Part shown: positions 2,589-23,064 of the stretch, piece after piece
Layout: each line of letters starts with the position of its first letter
Position numbering within the stretch: the stretch's first letter is position 1
Virus record (IMG/VR): IMGVR_UViG_3300040751_001206
Coordinates: 1-30,276 of that record
Direction: 5' to 3' (one strand)
DNA: 30,276 nt
From: a virus
Notes under the pieces: generated by a model
Told to the model about the DNA's origin: nothing
What the model saw: the letters and a program-made list of their open reading frames with translations, nothing else
The model's database searches: none
Position numbers and translations under genes: made by a program

Positions 2589-3542
2589 ATGAATCGGGGT
2601 TCTTTACGCGCGTGTACTGACACGTACTTGTCGTGGCTTGTGAATGTCAGGAAGGTTCAGGGGTCGACTGCCTACAGGTACGGGAAGATTCTTGACGAGT
2701 TCGTCGGGGCGATCGGTGACGTTGACCCATCCACAGTGACGGGTGAGCAGATCGAACAGTGGATGACTCGGGTGCGTCCTAAGGGGCGGGTTGGGGCTGC
2801 TGGTACTCAACGGTTGGATCGTTCGGTGGTGTCGTCACTGTTTGAGTTTCTGTTGCGTACCGAGGTGGTGTCGAAGGACCCGACTTTGCTTGTTGGTGTG
2901 CCGAAGGTGCGGAATGTTCAGTCGAAAGCGCTCAGTGATGAGGACTTCGTTTCGTTCTGGAATGCGGACCTGTATCTGGATGAGCGGGTCATGTTCGGGT
3001 TGGGTTTATTTGCGGGTTTGCGGCGGGCTGAGATCATGTCTGTTGCGCCTTCGTCGTTTGATGTGGGGCGTGAACGGATTGACTTTATGGTTCGTAAGGG
3101 TGGCTCGCAGTTTGGGGTTGAGTACGGGGCTGCTGTGCGGTCGATCGCTAGGCATCTTCCGCATTTGTTGTCGGAGGATCAGGCACAGCGGTGGTTAGAT
3201 CAGGTGTCTGAGATGGTGTTGTATCGGTGGAACGAGAAGGTGTTGACACCGTGGGACCTGCCCGCATCGGAAGCGGTCCGTCAGCGTTACAGCCTGACGG
3301 ACCCGTGGATGCCTGACCCTGTTGTGATGAACAAGCGTTTGTCGAAGTGTCTGAGACGTATCGACTGGCCTAGACATAGGATGTTTCATCCGCACGCGTT
3401 TCGCCATACGGCGGCGACCAATCTTGCGAGATGTGGTGTCCCGTTGGATGTGTTGGCGGATGTTCTGTCTCATGCGAGCACCGATACGACACGTCGTTAT
3501 CTGCGTGGCGGTCGGCTCGGGGAGTGGCTGACAGGCGTCTAA
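2589..3542 (+). CDS. int: Tyrosine recombinase (phage integrase)
   Basis: The 317-residue product catalyses site-specific recombination between attP and the host attB. The N-terminal SAM-like core-binding domain is at about residues 5-95. The catalytic domain carries Arg145 (GLRRAEI), a probable Lys170, His269-x-x-Arg272 (HAFRHT), His295 (LSHAS) and the nucleophile Tyr304 (TRRYLRG). All catalytic residues are present. Length is normal for compact integrases; an extra N-terminal arm-binding domain is short or missing. The gene follows the tRNA-Gly fragment directly, which gives the likely target. The start has a GGAGA motif very close upstream (GGAGACATGT), and a hairpin may limit translation. 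Confidence 0.93.
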   Translation: MNRGSLRACTDTYLSWLVNVRKVQGSTAYRYGKILDEFVGAIGDVDPSTVTGEQIEQWMTRVRPKGRVGAAGTQRLDRSVVSSLFEFLLRTEVVSKDPTLLVGVPKVRNVQSKALSDEDFVSFWNADLYLDERVMFGLGLFAGLRRAEIMSVAPSSFDVGRERIDFMVRKGGSQFGVEYGAAVRSIARHLPHLLSEDQAQRWLDQVSEMVLYRWNEKVLTPWDLPASEAVRQRYSLTDPWMPDPVVMNKRLSKCLRRIDWPRHRMFHPHAFRHTAATNLARCGVPLDVLADVLSHASTDTTRRYLRGGRLGEWLTGV

Positions 3543-5890: not shown

Positions 5891-6352
5891 ATGACTATCA
5901 GCAAGGATGAGTCGATCATCACTCAGGTGGCGGCGAAGATCGCCGCTGATCTGATCCCGTCGACCGACAACGTGGACCTGAACGTCGGAAACTGGGCGTC
6001 AGCATTCGTCACGGTCCGTGACGTGATGTTCGACGCACACGGTTCGACCCCTGCCGCCAACGTCTCACCTGTGGAGATGGTGCAGCAGGTGTTCCCCGAC
6101 ACGCAGGTCGTTCAGACCCCGCAGCCCGCTGTCGCCCCCGCCCATCTGACATCGGTTCCCGCTGTCCAGATCGGCGTCCAAGTCAAGGGCAAGACCCACG
6201 GACCGATTCCCGACTGGCTCGCCTCAGAGGCAGCGAAGAAGGGTGTCACGTCCGTGTGGGACGAGCGAGACAAGTTGTCCATCAACCCGAAGCGTCCGTG
6301 GTTCCGTTCCACAGAGGACAAAGACATCTGTCTCTGGCCACCCCGAGACTGA
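5891..6352 (+). CDS. Conserved-looking hypothetical protein of the replication operon
   Basis: An ATG at 5867 overlaps the nuclease stop, but AGGGAGA lies before the ATG at 5891, which I prefer. The 153-residue product has an N-terminal helical part (SIITQVAAKIAADLI) and a Pro/Val/Gln-rich linker at about residues 75-100. It ends in a basic and aromatic region (NPKRPWFRSTEDKDICLWPP). Sandwiched between a Cas4-like nuclease and a DnaB-like helicase, it might be a DNA-binding accessory or helicase loader. No motif proves this. Confidence 0.6.
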   Translation: MTISKDESIITQVAAKIAADLIPSTDNVDLNVGNWASAFVTVRDVMFDAHGSTPAANVSPVEMVQQVFPDTQVVQTPQPAVAPAHLTSVPAVQIGVQVKGKTHGPIPDWLASEAAKKGVTSVWDERDKLSINPKRPWFRSTEDKDICLWPPRD

Positions 6353-6363
6353 CCCAGAGACCA

Positions 6364-7443
6364 ATGGCTCGCATCTCACTGGAAGATGCGGCAGCAGCGT
6401 GGACGGCGGGGGACATCGGTGTCCCAACAACTCCCCCCACCTCAATGGCACCGATCGAACCTGCCGTCCACGCCGAATCTGCCCGCTACTACAAGCCGTT
6501 GTCGGACGCCGCTCTGGAATACGAGCGGTGGGCCACGACGCCAAACGAACGAATCCTGTTGGGTATTGACCCGATCGACGCCGCCACAGGCGGCATCGCA
6601 CGAGGCCATCTCGCACTGCTCATCGGGCACTCGCACAACGGAAAGACACAGGTTCTTCTGCACTGTCTGAGGAACATCTGTGTCGCACAGGCAAACGACG
6701 TTCTCTATTTCTGCCCAGACGAACCTCGCACCCTGACACTTTCCAAACTGGTGGCGATCCACCACAACATCCCGACGTGGCGACTGGAAGAAGCCATCTC
6801 GCACGGCGACAAAGACATGATCGGGATGCTGCACTCCACAGCGGAGAACGACTTCGCCAACCTGACGGTGTACGACATGCCTCTCGTACCGTCAGACCTA
6901 GAGGCCGCCTACAACGAGTGGTGCCAGATCAACGGTCGGGAACCATCACTGGTCGTCATCGACTATCTGGACCTTGTGGAAGCAGGGGAGACGATCCCCG
7001 ACAAGGCGAACTACATCAAAGCATTTGGTCGCCGTCACGACATCCCACTGCTGTGCCTGCACCAAACGAGTCGATCCGCAGGATCAGACGGCAAAGCACT
7101 CACCATCTCGTCAGGCGCATACGGCGGCGAACAGCAAGCAACCGTGATGCTGGCGGTACGGCGCAAACGGTACGAGATCGCTGCCCGCATCAAGGAACTG
7201 CAAGAGAAGAACGACCGTCACCACTCCGAACGGATCGCCGACGAGATTGCGTTCTGGGAACGGGAACAAGCCGTCCACCAGTACACGCTGACGATCTCTC
7301 TCGTAAAGAACAAACTCAGGTCCAACACGCTGGTCCCTGAAACCGACTTTGAGATCGACACCGACACGGGCCGCCTGTACCCGATGCGACAAGACGAACT
7401 CCCCGCCCAATACCTGCGGGAAATTGGACGGGAACAGTTCTGA
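6364..7443 (+). CDS. DnaB/RecA-fold replicative helicase-like ATPase
   Basis: A 359-residue ATPase. The N-terminal about 60 residues are low-complexity linker, followed by the RecA-like core. It has Walker A GHSHNGKT (88-95), Walker B LVVIDYLDL (196-204) and a DnaB-type motif 3/H region CLHQTSRSAGSDG (231-243). A glycine-containing segment (SGAYGGEQQA, 250-259) and basic residues (RRKRYE; VKNKLRSN) could contact DNA or be an arginine finger. The DnaB N-terminal primase-interacting domain is missing. It likely unwinds the phage replication fork as a hexamer, paired with the primase two genes on. The upstream frame extension to 6256 is a shadow of the preceding gene. Confidence 0.85.
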   Translation: MARISLEDAAAAWTAGDIGVPTTPPTSMAPIEPAVHAESARYYKPLSDAALEYERWATTPNERILLGIDPIDAATGGIARGHLALLIGHSHNGKTQVLLHCLRNICVAQANDVLYFCPDEPRTLTLSKLVAIHHNIPTWRLEEAISHGDKDMIGMLHSTAENDFANLTVYDMPLVPSDLEAAYNEWCQINGREPSLVVIDYLDLVEAGETIPDKANYIKAFGRRHDIPLLCLHQTSRSAGSDGKALTISSGAYGGEQQATVMLAVRRKRYEIAARIKELQEKNDRHHSERIADEIAFWEREQAVHQYTLTISLVKNKLRSNTLVPETDFEIDTDTGRLYPMRQDELPAQYLREIGREQF

Positions 7444-7646
7444 TGGCGCTCGGTTCCGCCCCCGAGATCGGACGCACCTTTGTGGTGGGGTCAAACGTGA
7501 ACTTCTACCCGTGGGTGCGCGACGACGGAACCACCGAACAACTGATGTTCGGTGACAGCGAACTGGTGTTCATCTGCGGACGCCCCGACAACATTCTTCC
7601 CCCTCCACAGCACACGTGGCGATGCCACAAGAGGTGCCACCCATGA
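7443..7646 (+). CDS. Small hypothetical protein
   Basis: The ATG shares a base with the helicase stop (TGATG) and the gene's own stop overlaps the primase ATG (ATGA), so it is embedded in the operon. The 67-residue product is beta-like at first (IGRTFVVGSNVNFYPWV) and ends with C-x3-C and a second Cys (WRCHKRC), possibly binding metal. No family recognised. It may help the helicase or primase, which is an inference from position only. Confidence 0.55.
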   Translation: MALGSAPEIGRTFVVGSNVNFYPWVRDDGTTEQLMFGDSELVFICGRPDNILPPPQHTWRCHKRCHP

Positions 7647-8551
7647 CACCGTTGGAACAGTTTGTCGACCTGTTCCGTGGACGTGGCGACTGCTACGGAT
7701 CATGGGACGGAGGGTGCGTACGCAACCCGTTGACGGTCGACACCTTCAAGCGTCACCTAGATGGGACAGAGAAGATCGGTGTGTACCCGATCGTCACCAC
7801 AGCATCAGGGGACCTGTGCATCTGGGGCTGCATCGACATCGACACCGATGATCTGGACGGGGCACGGAACCTCCAAACAATCCTGAAGGCACGCAACATC
7901 ACCACGTTTGTGGAACGGACACGCAAGGGCTACCACGTGTGGTGTTTCGCGGAGTCGTTAGTGCTCGCATCAACAATGCGTCGGGCGCTGCTGGCCGCAC
8001 ACCAAACGCTGAACTATCCAGCGAAAGAAGTCAACCCGAAACAGGAACGCCTAGCGAGAGGGCAGGTCGGCAACTACGTCCGACTGCCGTACTACGGGCC
8101 TCAAGAGGGTGTCCCAGTCGACCGTTTCGTTATGGACGACAACGACAACCCGCTTGATCTCGGCGGGTTCCTTGCAACCGTGAGAAAAACAAGCGTCGCA
8201 GCACTAGAGGAAACCGCATCACTGTGGGTAGCGCCGCCCGTCACCCAGTACACAGGCGGCGAAGCCGTGTGGGGCCAAGACACACATGACTTGATCGCAC
8301 CGCTGATGCGCAGCGACGACGTGAACGGGACGGTCTACTCCATATGGAGACACGGGCCGATGCCAGATCATCCCGACAGATCAGGGGCGCTCGTCCGACT
8401 CGCGTTTCATTTGTGCGAATGCCACATCCCGATCGAACAAGCGTGGCTTGTTCTGATCGACGCAGATCGACGGTGGGGGAAGTTCCACGCACGGACCGAC
8501 GGCGAATACCAACTCCGTCGAATCCTTGAACACGGATACCGAGGCTCATGA
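7643..8551 (+). CDS. Archaeo-eukaryotic-type primase-polymerase
   Basis: I chose the ATG that overlaps the previous stop (ATGA) and follows AAGAGGTG; a start 27 bases upstream is possible. The 302-residue protein has the AEP core. It shows the metal-binding DxD at Asp65/Asp67 (CIDIDTDD), the RTRKGYHVW strand with His98, and GNYVRLPYYG (about 143-152). A C-terminal helical PriCT-like region lies at about 240-300 (ALVRLAFHLCECHIP, RRWGKFHA). It should make primers, and perhaps extend them, for the phage fork. No separate DNA polymerase gene is in this window. Confidence 0.82.
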   Translation: MTPLEQFVDLFRGRGDCYGSWDGGCVRNPLTVDTFKRHLDGTEKIGVYPIVTTASGDLCIWGCIDIDTDDLDGARNLQTILKARNITTFVERTRKGYHVWCFAESLVLASTMRRALLAAHQTLNYPAKEVNPKQERLARGQVGNYVRLPYYGPQEGVPVDRFVMDDNDNPLDLGGFLATVRKTSVAALEETASLWVAPPVTQYTGGEAVWGQDTHDLIAPLMRSDDVNGTVYSIWRHGPMPDHPDRSGALVRLAFHLCECHIPIEQAWLVLIDADRRWGKFHARTDGEYQLRRILEHGYRGS

Positions 8552-9284: not shown

Positions 9285-9733
9285 GTTACCACGAGCAGTC
9301 ATTCATGGCCCGTTTCGGAACGATGGGGGACGCCGCCGAGAAACAGTTTGAGACGATCTTTCCGCAGCACCACAGGTTCGGCATCAACAGGCCGAACATG
9401 CACGTGCCGTCAATCCCGCCGATGCTCAGGTACGCCCCCGACTACATGATTGTTTCGGGACTGGTCGAATGTATGGGGATCGGCAGGGACGGAACCCTGA
9501 AGTTGAAGTTCGACAAACTGTCGGCCCTTCAACGATGGGAACTGATCGCAGAAGTCTCACTGTTCGTGTGGGACTCGCATCGTTCCCGTTACTGGATCGC
9601 CCCGATCTCCGACTGGCATCGGTCATGCGTTGAACACGGAGACGTGGACGAGTTCAACGACAACAACAAACCGTACATCCGTCTGAAGTCATCAAACTTC
9701 CCGACCGCCTCCGTGAAGTTCCATGCCGAGTGA
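9281..9733 (+). CDS. PD-(D/E)XK-like nuclease with altered active site
   Basis: The ATG overlaps the previous stop (ATGA); a longer frame upstream is a shadow. The 150-residue product has a possible nuclease core. It shows Glu20 (DAAEKQFE), Pro53-Asp54 (RYAPDYMIVSG), Glu63-x-Met65 where Lys is expected, then a lysine-rich strand (GTLKLKFDKLSALQRWE). The lysine may have moved to position 74-79, or the enzyme may be inactive. Aromatic strands (FVWDSHRSRYWIAPI) complete an alpha/beta fold. A Holliday-junction or repair-type nuclease is my best guess. Confidence 0.5.
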   Translation: MSYHEQSFMARFGTMGDAAEKQFETIFPQHHRFGINRPNMHVPSIPPMLRYAPDYMIVSGLVECMGIGRDGTLKLKFDKLSALQRWELIAEVSLFVWDSHRSRYWIAPISDWHRSCVEHGDVDEFNDNNKPYIRLKSSNFPTASVKFHAE

Positions 9734-10625
9734 ACGCGAACTCCCCTTCGCCAACCCCCACATCGACTACCGACAGGCACAACTGAGGAAGCGAGCATCG
9801 AACGTCCGCTCGTATGTGACCCCACAGATCGAACAACTGTGGGACACCCGCAAACCAGAGTCATTGACGGAAGCACTCATGGTGGCGTCACCTTCCGACA
9901 ACATCAGTGACTGGCCAGACCTGCAACCAACCATCGACGCCGTGGCCTCGTGCGTCGACCAGTTACAGGAAGAACACCGTTACGTCATCGAAGCAATCTT
10001 CTACGAACGTGCCGCTTATTCGGAACTGGGAGAACGGCTCGGTTGCAGCAAGACGCACGCATGGCGAATCACGCAGGCAGCAATGCGTGAACTGGGAACC
10101 CTGCTGCGAAACGACCCGACCATAAGGAGCAGATACATGGCACCCGTCCCTGAAACGTGGGAACAAGCAGCAGCCGAATGGGTTACCGAACTGTCAAACG
10201 GACAGCAAGAACCAAACCCGATCGACATTCATAGCCCGATCCGTTTACGCGACATGATTGTCCGCACCTACGACAAGTCAGGAAAAGTCTCCCCGATCGC
10301 AGCGTTCAAGGGAATCGCATATGACGCCATCGGCCACCTGCGGACAATGGGACCCGACGGCTGGGACGAAGCACAGATGATCGACCTGTTGACATCGAAG
10401 CAACGCGACTACGGGCATGGCAACATCAACGCTTTCGGCATGTACGGGATTCTCGTCAGGTTGTCCGACAAGATCGAACGCCTCAAGAACCTGATGTCAA
10501 ACAACCGTGAGCCAGCGAATGAATCGTTCCGAGACACGCTGCTGGACATGGTGGGCTACTGCGTTATCGCACACATGTTGGACGAAGAAACATTCGGACT
10601 GCCACTAGGGAGCAACAATGAGTGA
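9723..10625 (+). CDS. Fusion: sigma-70 region-4-like HTH plus Nmad1 (DUF1599-like) domain
   Basis: A 300-residue protein with two unrelated halves. Residues about 72-128 look like sigma factor region 4 (LQEEHRYVIEAIFYERAAY, then ELGERLGCSKTHAWRITQAA). Residues about 217-285 match the nucleotide-modification-associated/DUF1599 pattern (KQRDYGHGNINAFGMYG, RLSDKIERLKNL, ESFRDTLLDMVGYCVIAHM). The join at about 130-140 contains a perfect internal ribosome site and an in-frame ATG (Met139). The second domain could therefore also be made alone (162 aa), or the gene arose by stop-codon loss between two genes. Nmad1 proteins are associated with modified-nucleotide metabolism in phages; the reaction is not established. 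The gene overlaps the previous gene by 11 bases. Confidence 0.7.
   Translation: MPSERELPFANPHIDYRQAQLRKRASNVRSYVTPQIEQLWDTRKPESLTEALMVASPSDNISDWPDLQPTIDAVASCVDQLQEEHRYVIEAIFYERAAYSELGERLGCSKTHAWRITQAAMRELGTLLRNDPTIRSRYMAPVPETWEQAAAEWVTELSNGQQEPNPIDIHSPIRLRDMIVRTYDKSGKVSPIAAFKGIAYDAIGHLRTMGPDGWDEAQMIDLLTSKQRDYGHGNINAFGMYGILVRLSDKIERLKNLMSNNREPANESFRDTLLDMVGYCVIAHMLDEETFGLPLGSNNE
10124..10139 (+). promoter_or_regulatory. Internal ribosome binding site and in-frame start
   Basis: AAGGAG at 10124-10129 is followed after seven bases by ATG at 10137, in the frame of the fusion gene (codon 139). The match and spacing are better than for most annotated starts in this operon. It falls exactly at the boundary between the sigma-like and Nmad1 domains. 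Confidence 0.55.
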
Positions 10626-11927: not shown

Positions 11928-14900
11928 TCAACGACGCTCGGCTAAGCCACGCCGATACAACTCGTTCTCAATGTCCTTCTGCGTAACCTGCCTGACAGGC
12001 GAACCCGTCAAGAACCCGAGCACGTTCGACACGCGACGCTGCTGGTTCTTCTCCTCCTGCGGGAACAACCGTTCCAACTGGCCCAACGTCGGCACCAACG
12101 ACTCGGTGGCATAGTTCGCGAAATCGGTGTACGCCAAACGGCCAGCAGAATCCTCGGTGACACCACCGAGCAGCGCCATCAACGGCAACAACGCAGCCTT
12201 CGGCCCCGACACTGGAACGACACGATCATCACGGAACGGCTGATCGTTATACAACCGTTTCCCAGCAAGCCCTTCGATCGCCAACCGCAACGGTGCGATC
12301 GTGTCGGAAGCCAAACGAGGGAACCCTTCAGGTGACAACTTCGCAAGGTCCTCGCGCAAACGGTTGAACCCGATATCTGGTGCCAAATACAAGTTGTCCC
12401 CGAAGGGCAGTTTCACCGCCCCCTGATCCCGAAGATACGACGGGACAACATCACCTTCCTCAGAGTCGTCAATGTTCCGCATCGCACTGCTGTACAGGTT
12501 GTACATGCGTGGACGTGTCCACATCGTCTGAACCTGCATCGGAACATTCCGAGAGAAGAACGTCCAGAACGGGATCAGACGGCGAGCCGCCTGATCCAAC
12601 TTCGATGAGTCGCTGTAGATGAAATGCACAAACTCGATTCGTGCAATCGCCTCATCCAAACCGTTGCCCTGACGGACCACCGAATCCCACGCCATCCCAG
12701 CGCGAACCCACCCCTCCACATACTGACCAGCCTTGTATGACGCATTTGTCACACGGTTCTGTGTAAGGGCACTACCGACAGCGGCGCGGCCCAGTTCATC
12801 AAACTGGCCAGCGCCCGACGCCAACACGGCTTCGATCACCTGCTGCTCGGTCGGACTCAACGACCTATAGATCGCAGGGTCCGCCATGTAACGGTTCCAC
12901 AACTTGAACCCAGCGTTCATCGAATCAACACTGACACCGTGCGTCGCGTTCATAAACACCGCTGACATCAGGTTGCGGGCATGGAACCGAGGGGACAGAG
13001 TGGCATACGTCTTGAAGAACTGGATGTACCTGTCCCACATCTTCCACAGGGCATTCATCTCACGTTGCGTCTTAGGCAACTGTTCCAACATGCCAAGCAT
13101 CCGATCAGGCACTGCGATCCCGAGACGTTCGCTGATCTCCTTCCAGCCGTCCTCCAGCATCGTGCGATACACGACATGGAACTGGCCGTCAGCCACCATC
13201 TCCAGAATCTGATTCGCAGATTCCCAGTCTCCAGCCTTCGCAGCACGTTTGCCCTCAGCCAAACGGACACGATCCAAACGGACAGCATCGACCTGTTGCG
13301 TCAACTCCAACAGTTCAGATTCCAACCTGTAGTAGTCGGCAAGAATGCCGTACGTCAGGTCACCCTCAGGGGTGCCAACACCCGCACGCACAGCCGCAGA
13401 CAACGCAGCGTTCGATGACTCACCAAAACCGAACGAGAACACAACCGAGTCACGTGTCTGCTCCCCAGCGAAACGGTACGACGCCCCCTCAGGAAGCAAC
13501 GCACCAGTGCTCGGGTAGTACAACGCCTCGCCAACAGTCCTGCCCGATGACTCGGGAGGAGCAACAATGTCGCCCTTGCGGACATGCAAACGGACAACCC
13601 TGCCACCCTCACCCGCATACATCGCCGCATCCTCTGGCGTCGCAGCCAGATAGATGCCACGGCCACGAGTCACCCCCGACACATCGTCGGCACGAGGAAC
13701 AAACCCAGCGACATCACCCGCAGCGATCCCCGCAGCGTTATCCGCTGTGGTGCCGTGATAAACCACAACCCAACTGGTGTCGGGCAAACTGTCGAACAGT
13801 TCCATCTCTGCACGAACCTGTGCTGGTCTCGCCATCGCCGTCGAACCACGCAACCCAGACGCAGTAGCAGCGTTATTCGGATCAAGAAGGCGAATGACCG
13901 ACTCAACGAACGCCTCACGTTCACGCTGCGACTGGGCAGCCCTACGTGCCTTCGGGACCGCCTTCTCCTCATCAACGAACCGACGGGCTGTCTCCGTGAT
14001 CCGCTGAAGATTGTCACGAACCTCCGTCCACTGGTTCAAGTCAGACACCGCTTGACGCAAACGAGAATCAACAACCTGACCCGATTGGCGGATCAACTCC
14101 AACTCAATGTCACGAACCTCAGCACCGTTGATAATCACACGGCCCGCATCCAGACGCGCCTGCCGATCAAGATTCCGTGGCAACACCTCATACAGCGGTG
14201 CCTGCCCCTCGGGGACAGGACCCTCAAGGCGTCTCGCCGCACCCATCTCCTCCAACTGTGCCAACAAATCAGCACGACGGCCCTGAGCACGCGCCACCGT
14301 CTCAGGGGTTGCAGGCGGCAACACCCGTTCAGTCGTCGCAGTTTCCTCTACACCAGCCGCAGCACGACGCACACCGTACGGTGTGTACCTCCCGTCCTGT
14401 GTAGGGGGCAACTCGTCCAACGTGCGCTGCGTTGCGGCACGACGATCCCGCATCCTTGCGGGGTCGTCGGCCAACGGAGCCAACACCGTCGGCTCGGCAG
14501 ACAACGCCAAATCGTTTTCAACAACCCTCAGTTCACCCAGCACCGACGACAACTCGTCACGCTCAGACTGCAACACCCTCTGACGGGCAACCAGCCTCCG
14601 ACGATTGTTCCGCCGCCCAGCACGCGCCGCAGCAGTCGCTTCAACAACCTCGCGCTCAATATCACCGAGCACCGCATCCAGATCAGCAACAGACTTCTCC
14701 AAAGTTGCAAGCGCACCCTCGCGGCGAGACGGATCACGCAACCTTTCAGTCACATTGTTCAGTTCGATCCCGACACGATCCGCTTCATCAGCCGCAGCAT
14801 CACCAAGCGCAGCCAGACGTGCAGCATTCCGCTTCCGATAACGACTGACAACACCGTCAATCTTCTGATTGACTCTCGCCTCCGCTTGACGCTGCCTTGC

Positions 14901-16463
14901 AGCCAGCGGATTCAGACGGGAAACCAAACCCCTGTCAGCATCCCTGAAAGCACCAACCGTGTCCTTCTTAGCAACCTCGGCAACCATGCGGTTCGCCGTC
15001 GAATCAGCAACACCAAGATCAACCAGCCGCTTCTTGACCGTTGCCTCACGAACCGCCTGACCAGCAAACCCGACGTACCTGTCCAAGATGACAGCAAGAT
15101 CAGACTCCAACACATCGGCGTCACCGATCACATCGCCAAACACGCGACGCATCTCCATGTTGATCTCACCGATCGTGCCCCGACCAAAATCAACCTGACG
15201 GCCAGCAAGCCTGTGCTTGCCACCCACCAACACGCGTCCCTCCGCAATCTGCGAACCACGAACCCTGTCCGTCGTAATCCCCAACACACGACGGAGATCG
15301 GCACCCAACTCGTCACCAGCGTCGATCACGCCACGACCCTCATCGGTCCACACGTGAGGCACATAGTTCTCGCGGTACGCGATGTTCGCCCCGAACTCGT
15401 CGTTCAACACCCCCGACCCGTTCGGCCCAACCAACCCATCGAACCACTGGCGTACACGGGCCAACACGGGAGAGTTCGCCTGCCCCTCCTCCAACGCGAC
15501 AACACCCAAACGGCGTGTCTCGTCATCCATCTCGTCAACAATTTGCTTCGCCTCTCGGCCCGCCTCGTTCGCCACACGGCCAGCCGCCGCATCACCACGA
15601 CGCACACTGCCGATAAACGCCGCCGCCTCCGTCGCCGTCTGCGGACCACGACCAGTCGTCAACTTCGTGACAGCCTCAACCAAATTTTCGTCAACACGAG
15701 CATCACGAATACGGGAACCAACACGTGACTGGTTGTAGCCAGCGCGAATCCCAGAAAGCCTGCCACCGACAGCATCAGCCAAACCTTGAGTACCAGCAAT
15801 CCGCTGCCCCATAAAACGCACACCAGAACGCGGCAAGTTGTTCGCCACCCGCTCCGCATCAGTCAAACCAGCCAACCCGCGTGCACCAGCCCGCTGAACA
15901 ATCTCCTCCGCAACACCATCAGCAGCCAACCGTTGCGCCAACGCCACACGGCCAGCACGCGACGCGAACGGGGCAGTGCCCAACGTCATATACGTCAACG
16001 GGTCCGTCGCAACATCACCAGCGAAACCAATCAAACGGTCAGCCCACTTGCTGCCAGTGATCTTCCCGTCCTCACCAGCCAACGCGGTGCCAACCCCGTA
16101 CGTCGGGTCCTTCACCTTGTCCAACCAATCCGCAAACGGATTGGTGCCGATCTCGCCACTGTCACTAAGGACAGCATCAGCCGTAGCAACAATCGCCCGC
16201 TGCGGGACACTGAGAAGATTCAACGGTGCCAACACCGTCTGAACCACACGGTTCCCCAGCACAGGCGCAGCAATGCGGGTCAACAAATTCGGCTTGACCC
16301 CACCAGACGACTCTGAACGCTGCCGCAACAACTCAGCGGCCTGAACGCCCAGATCATCCAGCCGTGTCACCCCTGGCCGTCCCGCCGCACCAGCGGTCGG
16401 ACGACTCAGATTCGTGGAACGCGTAGACCTGATCGCATCAAGAACATCGTTCGATACAGCCAT
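11928..16463 (-). CDS. Giant ejection-type virion protein with embedded PARP-like ADP-ribosyltransferase domain
   Basis: At 1511 residues it is the largest gene and the last of the late operon. It follows the nozzle and three Ala/Gln-rich helical proteins, the place where podoviruses encode proteins ejected with DNA. Residues about 560-860 are long charged coiled coils. At about 898-1000 lies an ART signature: VVYHGTTADNAAGI (His903), GRGIYLAATPEDAAMYA (Tyr938) and LLPEGASY (Glu992). This resembles the H-Y-E layout of PARPs (HGS...GKGIYFA...A.YC), with the same His-Tyr spacing. Later, RFHARNLMSAVFMNATHG and LIPFWTFFSRNVPMQ resemble C-terminal parts of large phage polyvalent or ejection proteins and may contact membrane. 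No lysozyme motif seen. The ATG follows GGTAATAGGC, part of the recurrent leader motif. Confidence 0.75.
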   Translation of the reverse strand: MAVSNDVLDAIRSTRSTNLSRPTAGAAGRPGVTRLDDLGVQAAELLRQRSESSGGVKPNLLTRIAAPVLGNRVVQTVLAPLNLLSVPQRAIVATADAVLSDSGEIGTNPFADWLDKVKDPTYGVGTALAGEDGKITGSKWADRLIGFAGDVATDPLTYMTLGTAPFASRAGRVALAQRLAADGVAEEIVQRAGARGLAGLTDAERVANNLPRSGVRFMGQRIAGTQGLADAVGGRLSGIRAGYNQSRVGSRIRDARVDENLVEAVTKLTTGRGPQTATEAAAFIGSVRRGDAAAGRVANEAGREAKQIVDEMDDETRRLGVVALEEGQANSPVLARVRQWFDGLVGPNGSGVLNDEFGANIAYRENYVPHVWTDEGRGVIDAGDELGADLRRVLGITTDRVRGSQIAEGRVLVGGKHRLAGRQVDFGRGTIGEINMEMRRVFGDVIGDADVLESDLAVILDRYVGFAGQAVREATVKKRLVDLGVADSTANRMVAEVAKKDTVGAFRDADRGLVSRLNPLAARQRQAEARVNQKIDGVVSRYRKRNAARLAALGDAAADEADRVGIELNNVTERLRDPSRREGALATLEKSVADLDAVLGDIEREVVEATAAARAGRRNNRRRLVARQRVLQSERDELSSVLGELRVVENDLALSAEPTVLAPLADDPARMRDRRAATQRTLDELPPTQDGRYTPYGVRRAAAGVEETATTERVLPPATPETVARAQGRRADLLAQLEEMGAARRLEGPVPEGQAPLYEVLPRNLDRQARLDAGRVIINGAEVRDIELELIRQSGQVVDSRLRQAVSDLNQWTEVRDNLQRITETARRFVDEEKAVPKARRAAQSQREREAFVESVIRLLDPNNAATASGLRGSTAMARPAQVRAEMELFDSLPDTSWVVVYHGTTADNAAGIAAGDVAGFVPRADDVSGVTRGRGIYLAATPEDAAMYAGEGGRVVRLHVRKGDIVAPPESSGRTVGEALYYPSTGALLPEGASYRFAGEQTRDSVVFSFGFGESSNAALSAAVRAGVGTPEGDLTYGILADYYRLESELLELTQQVDAVRLDRVRLAEGKRAAKAGDWESANQILEMVADGQFHVVYRTMLEDGWKEISERLGIAVPDRMLGMLEQLPKTQREMNALWKMWDRYIQFFKTYATLSPRFHARNLMSAVFMNATHGVSVDSMNAGFKLWNRYMADPAIYRSLSPTEQQVIEAVLASGAGQFDELGRAAVGSALTQNRVTNASYKAGQYVEGWVRAGMAWDSVVRQGNGLDEAIARIEFVHFIYSDSSKLDQAARRLIPFWTFFSRNVPMQVQTMWTRPRMYNLYSSAMRNIDDSEEGDVVPSYLRDQGAVKLPFGDNLYLAPDIGFNRLREDLAKLSPEGFPRLASDTIAPLRLAIEGLAGKRLYNDQPFRDDRVVPVSGPKAALLPLMALLGGVTEDSAGRLAYTDFANYATESLVPTLGQLERLFPQEEKNQQRRVSNVLGFLTGSPVRQVTQKDIENELYRRGLAERR

Positions 16464-16468
16464 GCCTA

Positions 16469-17707
16469 TTACCGAGTGATCGCCCCAACGATCGACGCAA
16501 TCTGATCGCTAGACAAACGAACCTTCGGGCGGGCAACCGCCGTCGACGCCGACTGCTTCTCTGTCGGTGTTGCCACCGCCGCCAGCAACGCCCGCTGATT
16601 ATCCAGATACTTCTCGGCAGCCGTCGTTCCACGCGTGTTCCGAGCCACATCTAGGCGACGGTCACGTTCAGCCTGATCGGCCTCACGCTGACGGGCAATC
16701 GCCGCCTGCTCCGAACGGGTCCCCTGCACAAAGTTTCGTTCCTTCTTGTCCGCAGCAGAAATGCCCGCCATCGCCCTGATCGTCGTGTCATCCAACACGG
16801 TCCGCTTCATCGACGGAGCAACCTTCGGTGCGTTCGGGGCAGACACAGCGTCAACTGTGCGGGCAACATACGGTCGCTCAGGATCAAACTCAAAGTTCGA
16901 CCGAGACTCTCCCGCATACTGGCGTGAACCAGAACGCATCTCATTCGCCATACGAAGCGCAGCAGCCAAATCTTTCCGATCGCCAGCCGTCTCACGCATC
17001 GCCTCAACCTGACGCCCCGTGTAATCACGAGACATTTGAGACGACTTCGACTCCTTCGACATCCAATCGTTGGCAGCCTTCAACGCTTCCTCACGGGCCG
17101 TATCCCGATACATTTCGGGATCGGCCAGCACACCAGTGATCCCCAGTTCACCCAACGCCTTGCGACGATCTGCGTCAGAGACAACCTCATACAGTTGCCC
17201 ATCCACACTCTTGATCTCACCCAACGCCTGACGGCGAGATAAGTCCTGCGCAGCGTTGTACTGCTGCTGAAACACCTTCGCCACAGCCTTGATGCCGTCG
17301 ATCTCAAACCCGCGAGCAGTCCTCGCATCAGACGACAACGACGAATCGTCATACAACGCAGCCTTCTGCTGGGCGGCCCACTGCTCGGGATCAACCCCAG
17401 CCATCACAGACTCGAAAGCCAACTGCGCCACAGGATCAGACGCATACGCAGCCTGCGTCGCCTCATAGTCAATGTTTGCCAACTGGTCCGCAGCCAACGG
17501 ACGCAACATCGAATCCTCAACCGCCTGCTGCAACGCGTCAAACGGCATCGTCCCCAACGACACCGACAACGGCAAACCCATCGACTGGGGCGAGAACAAA
17601 TCCTGCAACGTGTTCAGATTCGTGCCACCAGAATTGCTGTTCAACAACGCCAGCAACGCCGACACCGTGGTGATATCACCAATCGACTGGGCGTCCTCCC
17701 CAGCCAT
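16469..17707 (-). CDS. Ejection-type structural protein
   Basis: 412 residues, rich in Ala, Gln, Asp and Arg and mostly helical, with no signal peptide or enzyme motif. The N-terminus is Asn/Leu-rich (ALLALLNSNSGGTNLNTLQD); the C-terminal third is charged (EQAAIARQREADQAERDRRL). It lies between the other Ala-rich protein and the giant ART-bearing protein. By position and composition it resembles the internal core/ejection proteins of T7 and P22 type phages. The start overlaps the previous stop (TGATG). Confidence 0.6.
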   Translation of the reverse strand: MAGEDAQSIGDITTVSALLALLNSNSGGTNLNTLQDLFSPQSMGLPLSVSLGTMPFDALQQAVEDSMLRPLAADQLANIDYEATQAAYASDPVAQLAFESVMAGVDPEQWAAQQKAALYDDSSLSSDARTARGFEIDGIKAVAKVFQQQYNAAQDLSRRQALGEIKSVDGQLYEVVSDADRRKALGELGITGVLADPEMYRDTAREEALKAANDWMSKESKSSQMSRDYTGRQVEAMRETAGDRKDLAAALRMANEMRSGSRQYAGESRSNFEFDPERPYVARTVDAVSAPNAPKVAPSMKRTVLDDTTIRAMAGISAADKKERNFVQGTRSEQAAIARQREADQAERDRRLDVARNTRGTTAAEKYLDNQRALLAAVATPTEKQSASTAVARPKVRLSSDQIASIVGAITR

Positions 17708-18885
17708 CAGGAAGCACCCGCCAACACACTTGACGCAGGCACACCCAACGCCTGAGCAAACGCCGTCACCAACTCAACGACCGACGCAGGATCAAGGTCG
17801 CCGCCATAAGCATTCAGAATGTTGTTCAACAGATTCACCTGAGTGTTCTGCTGATTGGTGTCATACGCCTGCGTGGCCGTCGCCTCCTGCAACATCGCAT
17901 CCGCAACCGACCCCGCCTGATCGTTCTGGAAACCAATCAGATCACCAGTCAACCCGTACTGCTGACCCAACTGTGTCAACGTCATGTTCGTGATCTGGTC
18001 ACGAATCGCCTGCTCCTCAGCCGACTGCTGAGACAGCATCCCAGCACGAACCGCGTTCTCCTGACCAGCAAGATCGCTCGCAAACCCAGCCCGCATCAAC
18101 GCCAAATCAGCCAAACGAGAATCGTTCGCCTGCTGGTAACTCGCCCCCAACGTCCCCAACGAGTTAGCCAACGCCGCGTCATACGCGGCGTTGTTCGCCG
18201 CCTCCAAATCAACCAGCGCCTGAGACTGCGACGGATCAACACCAGTCGCCTCAAGATATGCGGCCAACGGGTTACCTGCCGACGCAGATGTGGATGGGGT
18301 CATCGACGCATACGGGTTGACAGCGTTCTGCAACACCAACGCCGCGTTGTCCATGTTCTGGTTGCCCAACGACTGCTGCTCTGCGACACGGTTGGCCAGA
18401 TTGGCCAACTGGTCGCCCCAGAACGTGCCACGTTCATCCAGTCGTCCCTGCAACCCACCCACAGCGTCGCCATAGGCAGTACCGATCTGAGAGATCAGAT
18501 CGTTGTACCGAGACACACCGTCAGCGGTGTTGCTATTCAGCGATCCATACAGGTTCTGGTAGATGGCAGCCAGCGGATTCGGCTTCGCCGTCTCCATCAA
18601 CGGCGCAGACCCTCCCGCCACAGATGTCGCAGCCGCAGGCTTCTTGATCGGAGGCTTGTTCAGGTTGAACGGCTTCATAGTGGCCGAATCAACACCGATC
18701 GCACCCAGTTCCGCTGAGGCGTAACCACTGGTGTCGGCGGGCACCGTTGGCTTCGGCTTCGTCGTCGGCTTCGGTGTTGCGTACGACCATCCAGAACCGT
18801 CATAGCCGACGCCAGAAGGCGTGCCAGCAAGATTCTTTCTTCCCAAACGGATCAACGCGCCAGAAGTAGGACTCATCTTGACCAT
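17707..18885 (-). CDS. Ejection-type structural protein
   Basis: A TTG three bases after the previous start region (18891) and ATG codons at 18885 and 18876 are candidates; GGGGAG/GAGG upstream favours 18885. About 392 residues: a Pro/Lys/Thr-rich N-terminal part (PKPTTKPKPTVPAD), then a long Ala/Gln/Asn/Leu helical body (QSQALVDLEAANNAAYDAAL). It lacks cysteines and membrane segments. Composition and position between nozzle and giant protein suggest an ejected core protein. Confidence 0.6.
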   Translation of the reverse strand: MVKMSPTSGALIRLGRKNLAGTPSGVGYDGSGWSYATPKPTTKPKPTVPADTSGYASAELGAIGVDSATMKPFNLNKPPIKKPAAATSVAGGSAPLMETAKPNPLAAIYQNLYGSLNSNTADGVSRYNDLISQIGTAYGDAVGGLQGRLDERGTFWGDQLANLANRVAEQQSLGNQNMDNAALVLQNAVNPYASMTPSTSASAGNPLAAYLEATGVDPSQSQALVDLEAANNAAYDAALANSLGTLGASYQQANDSRLADLALMRAGFASDLAGQENAVRAGMLSQQSAEEQAIRDQITNMTLTQLGQQYGLTGDLIGFQNDQAGSVADAMLQEATATQAYDTNQQNTQVNLLNNILNAYGGDLDPASVVELVTAFAQALGVPASSVLAGAS

Positions 18886-18887
18886 CC

Positions 18888-19322
18888 TCAACTCCCCAGA
18901 AACGGGTAATACTGCGACAACTGGGCGAACAAAGAGTTGATGGAGTTCGTCTTGTCCAACTCCAACTCTTTCAGCAACGTGTCGTACGCCGCCTGAGCAT
19001 TCACCTTCTCCAAATCCAACTGCGTCGTCTCATCACGCGTCTGATTCATGATGTCCTGACGGCCCTGAGCGGACTGCGTAGCGAAATCAGACACCCCGCT
19101 TTTCCGCACTCCACTGTTACGCAAACCCCGCTGCGAATAAGCAGACGCCAACTTCGACAAACTCTTCGACGTAACCGTGTCAAAGTCCCGCAAATTGCGC
19201 TGCCCACGCTGCTGCGACAAACGGCGCGCAAAGTCGTTCATGGCAGTAGTAGCGCCGTACTCCAGCGCCCCAGAACGCAAGCGCTTTGCCGCGTCCAATC
19301 CGAGATTCGTGAAATCTGCCAT
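18888..19322 (-). CDS. Small ejection-type / internal virion protein
   Basis: I use the ATG rather than the GTG one codon upstream. The 144-residue product is helical and rich in Gln, Ser, Arg and Ala (MNDFARRLSQQRGQRNLRDF). It has a C-terminal coiled region (QLDLEKVNAQAAYDTLLKEL). It is the first of four consecutive genes downstream of the tail-nozzle gene, resembling the small first member of the T7 gp14-15-16 or P22 gp7-20-16 sets in size order. This is an analogy in layout, not sequence homology that I can show. Confidence 0.55.
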   Translation of the reverse strand: MADFTNLGLDAAKRLRSGALEYGATTAMNDFARRLSQQRGQRNLRDFDTVTSKSLSKLASAYSQRGLRNSGVRKSGVSDFATQSAQGRQDIMNQTRDETTQLDLEKVNAQAAYDTLLKELELDKTNSINSLFAQLSQYYPFLGS

Positions 19323-19343
19323 CACCTATTACCCGTTTCGTTA
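19323..19343 (-). promoter_or_regulatory. Recurrent leader motif, copy B
   Basis: On the minus strand: TAACGAAACG-GGTAATAGGTG, then ATG. It begins with the TAA stop of the 45-aa gene and ends at the start of the next gene. It is the fullest copy of the motif. Confidence 0.5.
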
Positions 19344-22119: not shown

Positions 22120-23064
22120 TCAGGCGGTACGGCCCGTCAACTTGCCCTGCTTCTTGCGGTTACGGACCGTGAGGTTGCCGTAGCAGAAGATCAGCGCATA
22201 GCGAGCGTCCATGTTCTCAGGACGGACAAACTCGGTCTGCGAGAACCACTTGTCGGAGTGGCCAACAAGGGTCAGGTACTTGCTGTTGATGAAGTACATG
22301 GTTCCCGACGGTGCATCCACGTCGTAGACGACGGGAGCGGCCTTGAACAGCAGGTTCTGGAACCCACTGTCTGCGGTCTTGGTGTCGGTGTACCGAAGTT
22401 GCGGCGTGAGCAGCGACTCGTACTTCTCAAACAGGGTCTGAGTGGTCAGGATCATGTCGGGATGGTCGTTGCCAACCGAGCAGGTGTTGTAGGCGGTGGT
22501 CATGTCGGCCTGAGTCAAAGCACCAGCGGTGCCCTCCTCGTAGGAGGCCCAGAAGCCGTTGCCCGCACCAGTCGGGTCAATGCCGCCGACAGCAGCGGTG
22601 GAGTCAACGAGGGCTTCCAGACCCAGCCAGTCCTTGCCGCCGTTGCCCGTGCCGTCTCCGAAGAACATGGCGTTGAAGCCTTCCTTCATCGACTCCTCGG
22701 CCTGCATCACCTTCGCTTCAAGCAGGTTCACGAGAGCCTGCTCACCGTTGTTCTTCGCCTCCTCAATGCCCGAGATCGCGATGGAAACGGCGTACTGCTT
22801 CCAGTCAAACTCGGCAGCAGAGATGCCTGACTGCGGCGTGAGTGAGATGGTGTCGTAACCCGAGAACGAGCCAACAGTGCTGTTCTCACCGTAAATCAGC
22901 GGCTCCACAATCTTGGTGCCGCCGTTCAGCATACGGATACGGCCCTTGTCCATCAGGTGGGCCGTGAGAGGACGTGCCTGAAACACGTTGTCGGTCAGTT
23001 GGTCGCGGTAGTTCGCGACAGTGGTTGCAAGAAGTTCTTGCAGGGAATCGCCGTGAATGGCCAT
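22120..23064 (-). CDS. Major capsid protein
   Basis: 314 residues, directly downstream of a scaffold-like gene and the portal. The N-terminus (SLQELLATTVANYRDQLTDN), the central WKQYAVSIAISGIEEAKNNG with EAKVMQAEESMKEGFNAMFF, and the later PDMILTTQTLFEKYESLL read like the spine helix and A-domain of an HK97-fold capsid protein. An AGGAG sits six bases before the ATG, a strong ribosome site fitting high expression, and a GC hairpin follows the gene. The other main candidate in the cluster (portal) is clearly distinct. Confidence 0.85.
   Translation of the reverse strand: MAIHGDSLQELLATTVANYRDQLTDNVFQARPLTAHLMDKGRIRMLNGGTKIVEPLIYGENSTVGSFSGYDTISLTPQSGISAAEFDWKQYAVSIAISGIEEAKNNGEQALVNLLEAKVMQAEESMKEGFNAMFFGDGTGNGGKDWLGLEALVDSTAAVGGIDPTGAGNGFWASYEEGTAGALTQADMTTAYNTCSVGNDHPDMILTTQTLFEKYESLLTPQLRYTDTKTADSGFQNLLFKAAPVVYDVDAPSGTMYFINSKYLTLVGHSDKWFSQTEFVRPENMDARYALIFCYGNLTVRNRKKQGKLTGRTA

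Follow-up and report, generated by a model that had tools for sequence, protein, structure and literature searches.

The 30,276-nucleotide viral stretch analysed here (the window; the whole of an IMG/VR record of 30,276 bases) carries on its minus strand a very long gene (11928..16463) at the end of a block of late genes. The question that it raises is whether the 1511-aa product brings an ADP-ribosyltransferase (ART) into the host cell, and if so, of which kind. A preliminary description had recognized a PARP-type domain with an H-Y-E triad inside a candidate ejected virion protein. The 1511-aa reading frame, H903, Y938 and E992 were all found at the positions given there, and an ART-fold domain in such a protein is supported by family, fold and gene-context evidence; the assignment to the PARP type probably has to be revised.

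Based on the open reading frame and its syntenic homologs, the giant protein is a candidate internal virion or ejection protein. Its N-module (residues ~1-580; 14724..16463, minus strand) is kept among relatives, with 24-48% identity to about 20 of them in blastp, and matches phrog_36598 (function unknown; E 4.8e-5). The C-module (residues ~1019-1511; 11931..13409, minus strand) is the best-conserved region (32-51% identity, alignment A1). It matched no Pfam family; phrog_19395 was matched by 8 of 12 C-module members. The annotation of a PHROG that members match, tail fibre/host specificity, is not used as evidence. Residues 581-875 between them (13839..14723, minus strand) are charged, vary strongly in sequence and length across relatives, and are probably helical. 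The coiled coils previously proposed to flank the ART domain are plausible from the composition of residues 510-875, rich in A, R, L and E, and composition is all that points to them. The "membrane-like" C-terminal parts fared worse: the highest 19-residue hydropathy is just 1.5 (residues 1415-1433), and hydropathy gave no strong membrane segment in the giant protein. A 714-aa open frame rich in R, T and L lies antisense to the gene (13584-15728, plus strand), probably as a side effect of codon bias.

The carrier is widespread. IMG/VR contains at least 600 relatives of the SU10/Mx8-type major capsid protein of the window, and a giant protein with homologous ends lies at the same place in those loci that have enough downstream sequence; a syntenic protein of this kind is encoded downstream in many uncultured phages whose capsid genes are related. 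A C-module profile collected 80 loci, mostly new. Among the 83 distinct giant proteins compared (953-3798 aa, some shortened by contig or flank ends), the ends are conserved and the middle ranges from <300 to ~2,000 aa. In L113, the closest relative available (48% identity across the N-module), the ART domain is absent: the protein aligns gap-free to window residue ~872 and resumes at ~1019, with ~13 residues between these flanks. Because the flanks align on both sides, the alignment indicates that the ART domain is an insertion of ~140 aa (residues ~876-1018; 13410..13838, minus strand). The insert and the part of the gene before it have the same GC3 (0.60), so a recent arrival of the insert is not obvious. 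No ART-bearing ortholog of the giant protein was found among the relatives compared. PF18760 (ART-PolyVal) matched none of the relatives searched and PF00644 (PARP) none of 50; since the PF00644 search was made without a positive control, the absence of the ART from relatives rests on the regular-expression and profile results.

Other middles carry other domains. That of L114 includes a ParB-like domain (phrog_4715, 3.4e-8), and a GNAT domain over the Pfam cut-off lies in the middle of a 2160-aa giant protein (L176, ~residues 1085-1148; also L334). ART, ParB-like and GNAT domains are all in the published list of polyvalent-protein domains (PMC5512222). A recognizable effector domain was not found in most relatives, so the notion of a "cargo bay" rests on three cases. 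The giant proteins of L114 (L114:1160-5479) and L115 (L115:988-4650) are nearly identical, and a block of ~220 residues with the ParB-like domain is present in L114 only.

The ART motif itself is real. The ART signature H-G-[ST]...G-x-G-I-Y...A-x-x-Y occurs once in the protein and in none of 20,000 shuffles of it (a loose version occurs in 19); the strict pattern was found in 0 of the 83 homologous giant proteins and 0 of 1,206 ORFs (>=300 aa) of related loci. The first triad residue, H903 (WVVVYHGT; 13755..13757, minus strand), sits on the conserved His of ART-PolyVal in all of 24 alignments, built from random subsets in three MAFFT modes, and in a strand of the model described below. Y938 (GRGIYLA; 13650..13652, minus strand) occupies an invariant Tyr column of alignment A9 and likewise a model strand. 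The His-Tyr spacing is 35, as claimed. A strand-1 His and a strand-2 Tyr in HG[ST] and GxGxY contexts, the feature of HY-[EDQ] ARTs, are thus both present. The domain had been delimited too short: it reaches to about residue 1018 (13410).

The tests at the level of sequence families are each weak, yet they agree with one another on an ART. PF00644 matched the trimmed domain with E 5.8e-4 (19.9 bits, under the curated cut-off of 26.7), a value that includes some selection, as trimming was centred on the motif already described; against the full protein it gave E 0.016 (15.2 bits), and in a PARP-only search of the record E 2.0e-5. The exotoxin A catalytic family was sub-threshold on the trimmed domain (E 1.3e-3), as was ART-PolyVal (E 0.055; 14.7 bits against a cut-off of 31.2, and 12.4 bits in the genome search). 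An unrelated family, LAL_C2 (E 0.014), ranks between these ART families in Pfam, and no curated family cut-off was passed by the domain. NCBIfam gave no match. The ART-PolyVal signatures GYDG[VI] and (R)EIVVFxPxQI were not found; TRDSVVF alone resembles either.

With a self-made profile of 66 ART-PolyVal sequences, its domains gathered from viral contigs, the window protein (E 3.9e-4) outscored all of 1,000 shuffles and the 83 homologs, and the runner-up was a shuffle (E 0.76). In hhalign the domain matched the ART-PolyVal profile with 95.6% probability over 58 columns. Good alignment is limited to the first half (strands 1-3), and the strand with which ART-PolyVal typically ends is either absent or difficult to align. 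An earlier profile, dominated by DC33-type phages, had not separated the window protein from shuffles and was replaced by the broader one. Limnohabitans phage DC33 (L222; PQ492659.1) itself has a giant protein of >2,000 aa with an ART-PolyVal-like domain, which has ART counterparts of 74-96% identity in 29 IMG/VR loci (L231-L259); the record of DC33 is classed as Inoviridae with a 39 kb genome, a classification that looks wrong. Direct searches with the window ART gave little: the best tblastn match in the phage collection (E 0.6) was a stand-alone Kuttervirus protein that is a true ART-PolyVal, plasmids gave weak matches (E 0.3 or worse), and the PDB sequence search gave exotoxin A (E 0.19), PARP1 (1.1) and nothing better. 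No relative was found in IMG/VR pattern scans with the whole protein or the ART alone, nor in two genome-contig pattern scans with ART alignments, all of an insensitive type.

Comparison of a predicted structure with known folds had been proposed as a check. A single-sequence AF2 model of the domain gave no usable fold (pLDDT 39). With A9, in which the domain is aligned with 14 ART-PolyVal sequences, pLDDT was 64 and pTM 0.60, with 76-88 over the best strands, low confidence in the second half and <50 over model residues 92-120, which include E992. The modelled fold is partly inherited from ARTs, because the input alignment consisted of ARTs. In a Foldseek search against PDB nearly all of the top 20 were ART-fold proteins; the ARTs retrieved were RES, MbcT, diphtheria toxin, AcrIF11, tankyrases, PARP13/4/15 and Tpt1. 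ARTs also fill almost all 50 rows of VIA-align, where the best Z of 5.2 is reached by unrelated models as well and carries little weight alone. A search of viral models returned mostly ART-PolyVal and polyvalent proteins, together with a MuF fusion protein of Microbacterium phage Schubert (24% identity). The check retrieved mainly ARTs, and against this stand the pLDDT of 64, Z scores no higher than 5.2 and an input of ARTs only; on the whole, the domain very probably has an ART fold.

The third catalytic residue is likely to be another than was first supposed. Over all 15 sequences of A9 the invariant columns are Y902, H903, Y938 and D1005. D1005 (TRDSVVF; 13449..13451, minus strand) falls on the conserved Asp of GYDG in 11 of the 24 alignments and on the conserved Glu of REIVVF in the other 13, and in the AF2 model it directly precedes a strand (confidence ~60). 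The Glu previously named, E992 (13488..13490, minus strand), lies in a low-confidence loop; four of the 24 alignments put it on the Asp column and the other 20 on neither acid column, and it is probably not the catalytic acid. E1015 was also considered and was rejected, as it reached the Glu column in just one alignment. In polyvalent-protein ARTs the H, Y and D lie in strands 1, 2 and 5 (Iyer et al., 2017; PMC5512222), and AcrIF11 is active with His, Tyr and an acidic residue (D115; D146/E147) (PMC12421852). Based on the alignment counts and on these two precedents, we propose H903-Y938-D1005 as the likely triad, of the published H-Y-D type instead of the H-Y-E of PARP; among its relatives, the H-Y-D ARTs of polyvalent proteins are the best described.

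The poor second half also bears on whether the domain is an enzyme at all. It could be a non-catalytic ART-like fold, decayed or structural, kept as a spacer where the protein changes fast: no family matches the second half, the last ART-PolyVal strand cannot be placed with ease, and relatives do without the domain. Against decay, the domain retains the His, the Tyr, the glycine-rich turn and an in-register acid, the frame is intact, and the codon composition is that of the surrounding gene. We regard a non-catalytic fold as unlikely, and catalytic activity as reasonably probable.

If it is an enzyme, it may act on NAD+ without modifying any macromolecule, as a NADase or NAD+ phosphorylase of the RES/MbcT kind. 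The best PDB match of the model in Foldseek is indeed the RES toxin 6gw6 (E 4.6e-3, prob 0.99, 12% identity), with MbcT near. The order of matches in VIA-align has no meaning, however, as RES, ParT, SAIP, AcrIF11, cholix and PARP differ by <1 Z unit, and an injected destroyer of NAD+ could also hurt the replication of the phage itself; this reading is doubtful. Somewhat less probable still, and a special case of the explanation preferred below, is an anti-defence role, in which the domain would ADP-ribosylate an immune protein of the host in the way that AcrIF11 modifies Csy1. Delivery at entry would fit, and AcrIF11 (6kyf) is second in VIA-align (Z 4.8) and shares the use of His, Tyr and an acid (PMC12421852), but it is structurally no closer than other ARTs. 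A chance HG...GIY motif in a non-ART domain would agree with curated-library scores that are all under their cut-offs, and is very improbable given the shuffle and homolog controls and the agreement of several ART families with the fold search.

The late block runs on the minus strand in the order terminase, portal, major capsid protein, tail genes, a 145-aa, a 394-aa and a 412-aa protein, with the giant gene last. The capsid protein (22120..23064, minus strand) was identified by phrog_9953 (E 2.1e-79) and SU10_MCP and is 34% identical to that of Mx8. The 145-aa protein (18888..19325, minus strand) has a weak "DNA ejection" match (phrog_21132, E 0.0018). The 394-aa neighbor (17707..18891, minus strand; rich in Ala, Asn and Gln) is a candidate ejection protein by position and a weak match to phrog_37501, and the 412-aa neighbor (16469..17707, minus strand), which matched no family, by its place between the tail genes and the giant gene. 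A similar arrangement of ejection proteins is known from P22- and T7-like phages. Like the genes of polyvalent proteins, the giant gene is located with late virion genes, on the same strand as the block. The ART is the sole domain recognized in the window protein, where relatives have ParB-like or GNAT domains; LPD38 was not detected in it, in a search in which the positive control was equally silent. Position and neighbors suggest that the giant protein is an ejected virion protein; it would be packaged and injected, and its presence in the virion is probable.

The remainder of the window adds several observations. A tyrosine recombinase gene (2589-3542, plus strand; Phage_integrase, 2.5e-13) suggests a temperate phage. 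The gene at 7616-8551 (plus strand) matches AEP-TOTE (4.5e-20), an archaeo-eukaryotic primase domain that takes its name from TOTE conflict systems, and adjoins a DnaB-like helicase gene (6256-7443). A single ORF (9723-10625, plus strand) unusually pairs Sigma70_r4 (5.5e-6) with DUF1599 (2e-6), the "nucleotide modification associated domain 1".

The explanation that we prefer, at slightly better than even probability overall, is that a divergent ART, delivered to the host, has been inserted into the variable middle of a virion ejection protein. The giant protein would have conserved ends and a middle that receives effector-domain inserts, here a small HY-[EDQ] ART with the predicted triad. Together with the neighboring ejection proteins it would be packed into the head, and it would enter the host along with the phage DNA; the ART would then bind NAD+ and ADP-ribosylate a host macromolecule, most likely a protein, early in infection. 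If the enzyme is active, virion-delivered H-Y-D ARTs would extend to widespread uncultured phages with SU10/Mx8-type capsids. The carrier shows gain and loss of domains between relatives (ART in the window, ParB-like in L114 and not in L115, GNAT in L176) and is a natural place to search for anti-defence or early host-takeover enzymes. A bolder version is doubtful: a delivery chassis, its conserved ends doing packaging and ejection, with a cargo bay that swaps ART, ParB-like nuclease and acetyltransferase, and a new H-Y-D subgroup that disarms host defence at entry.

Among known systems, PARP (PF00644) shares HG[ST], GxGIY and the His-Tyr spacing with the window domain and is its top single Pfam match; it differs in that the domain remains under the cut-off, its second half, including the strand of the PARP Glu, is unmatched, and its third residue is most likely Asp. 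RES and MbcT resemble the model most closely in Foldseek, and unlike the window domain they are toxin-antitoxin enzymes acting on NAD+, at low identity. AcrIF11 is also a small phage ART with His, Tyr and an acid that may be Asp, and it is among the top structural matches; it is a stand-alone protein, whereas the window ART lies inside a giant protein, and the likeness is structural and by model. T4 Alt transfers ADP-ribose to RNA polymerase. Delivery of an ART with phage DNA is the accepted model for Alt and would apply to the window protein if it is ejected, but Alt is of the R-S-E class, and its carrier and phage are unrelated to those of the window. Its earlier use as the contrasting precedent overlooks the virion-delivered H-Y-D ARTs already predicted by Iyer et al. 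(2017; PMC5512222). The closest known kind is the ART-PolyVal/Tox-ART-HYD2 clade (e.g., the vRNAP of Roseovarius Plymouth podovirus 1, CBX87992). The window domain differs from it in its score, its longer His-Tyr stretch, the lack of the full GYDG and (R)EIVVFxPxQI signatures, and a carrier from a different, unnamed family. Like the polyvalent-protein ARTs, it has the H and Y motifs and, at an active-site column, an acid, which here is Asp; it too lies within a multi-part giant protein whose gene stands among late virion genes. The best reading is a divergent ART effector of a virion polyvalent-like protein, a concept that is already published (PMC5512222, PMC9503650).
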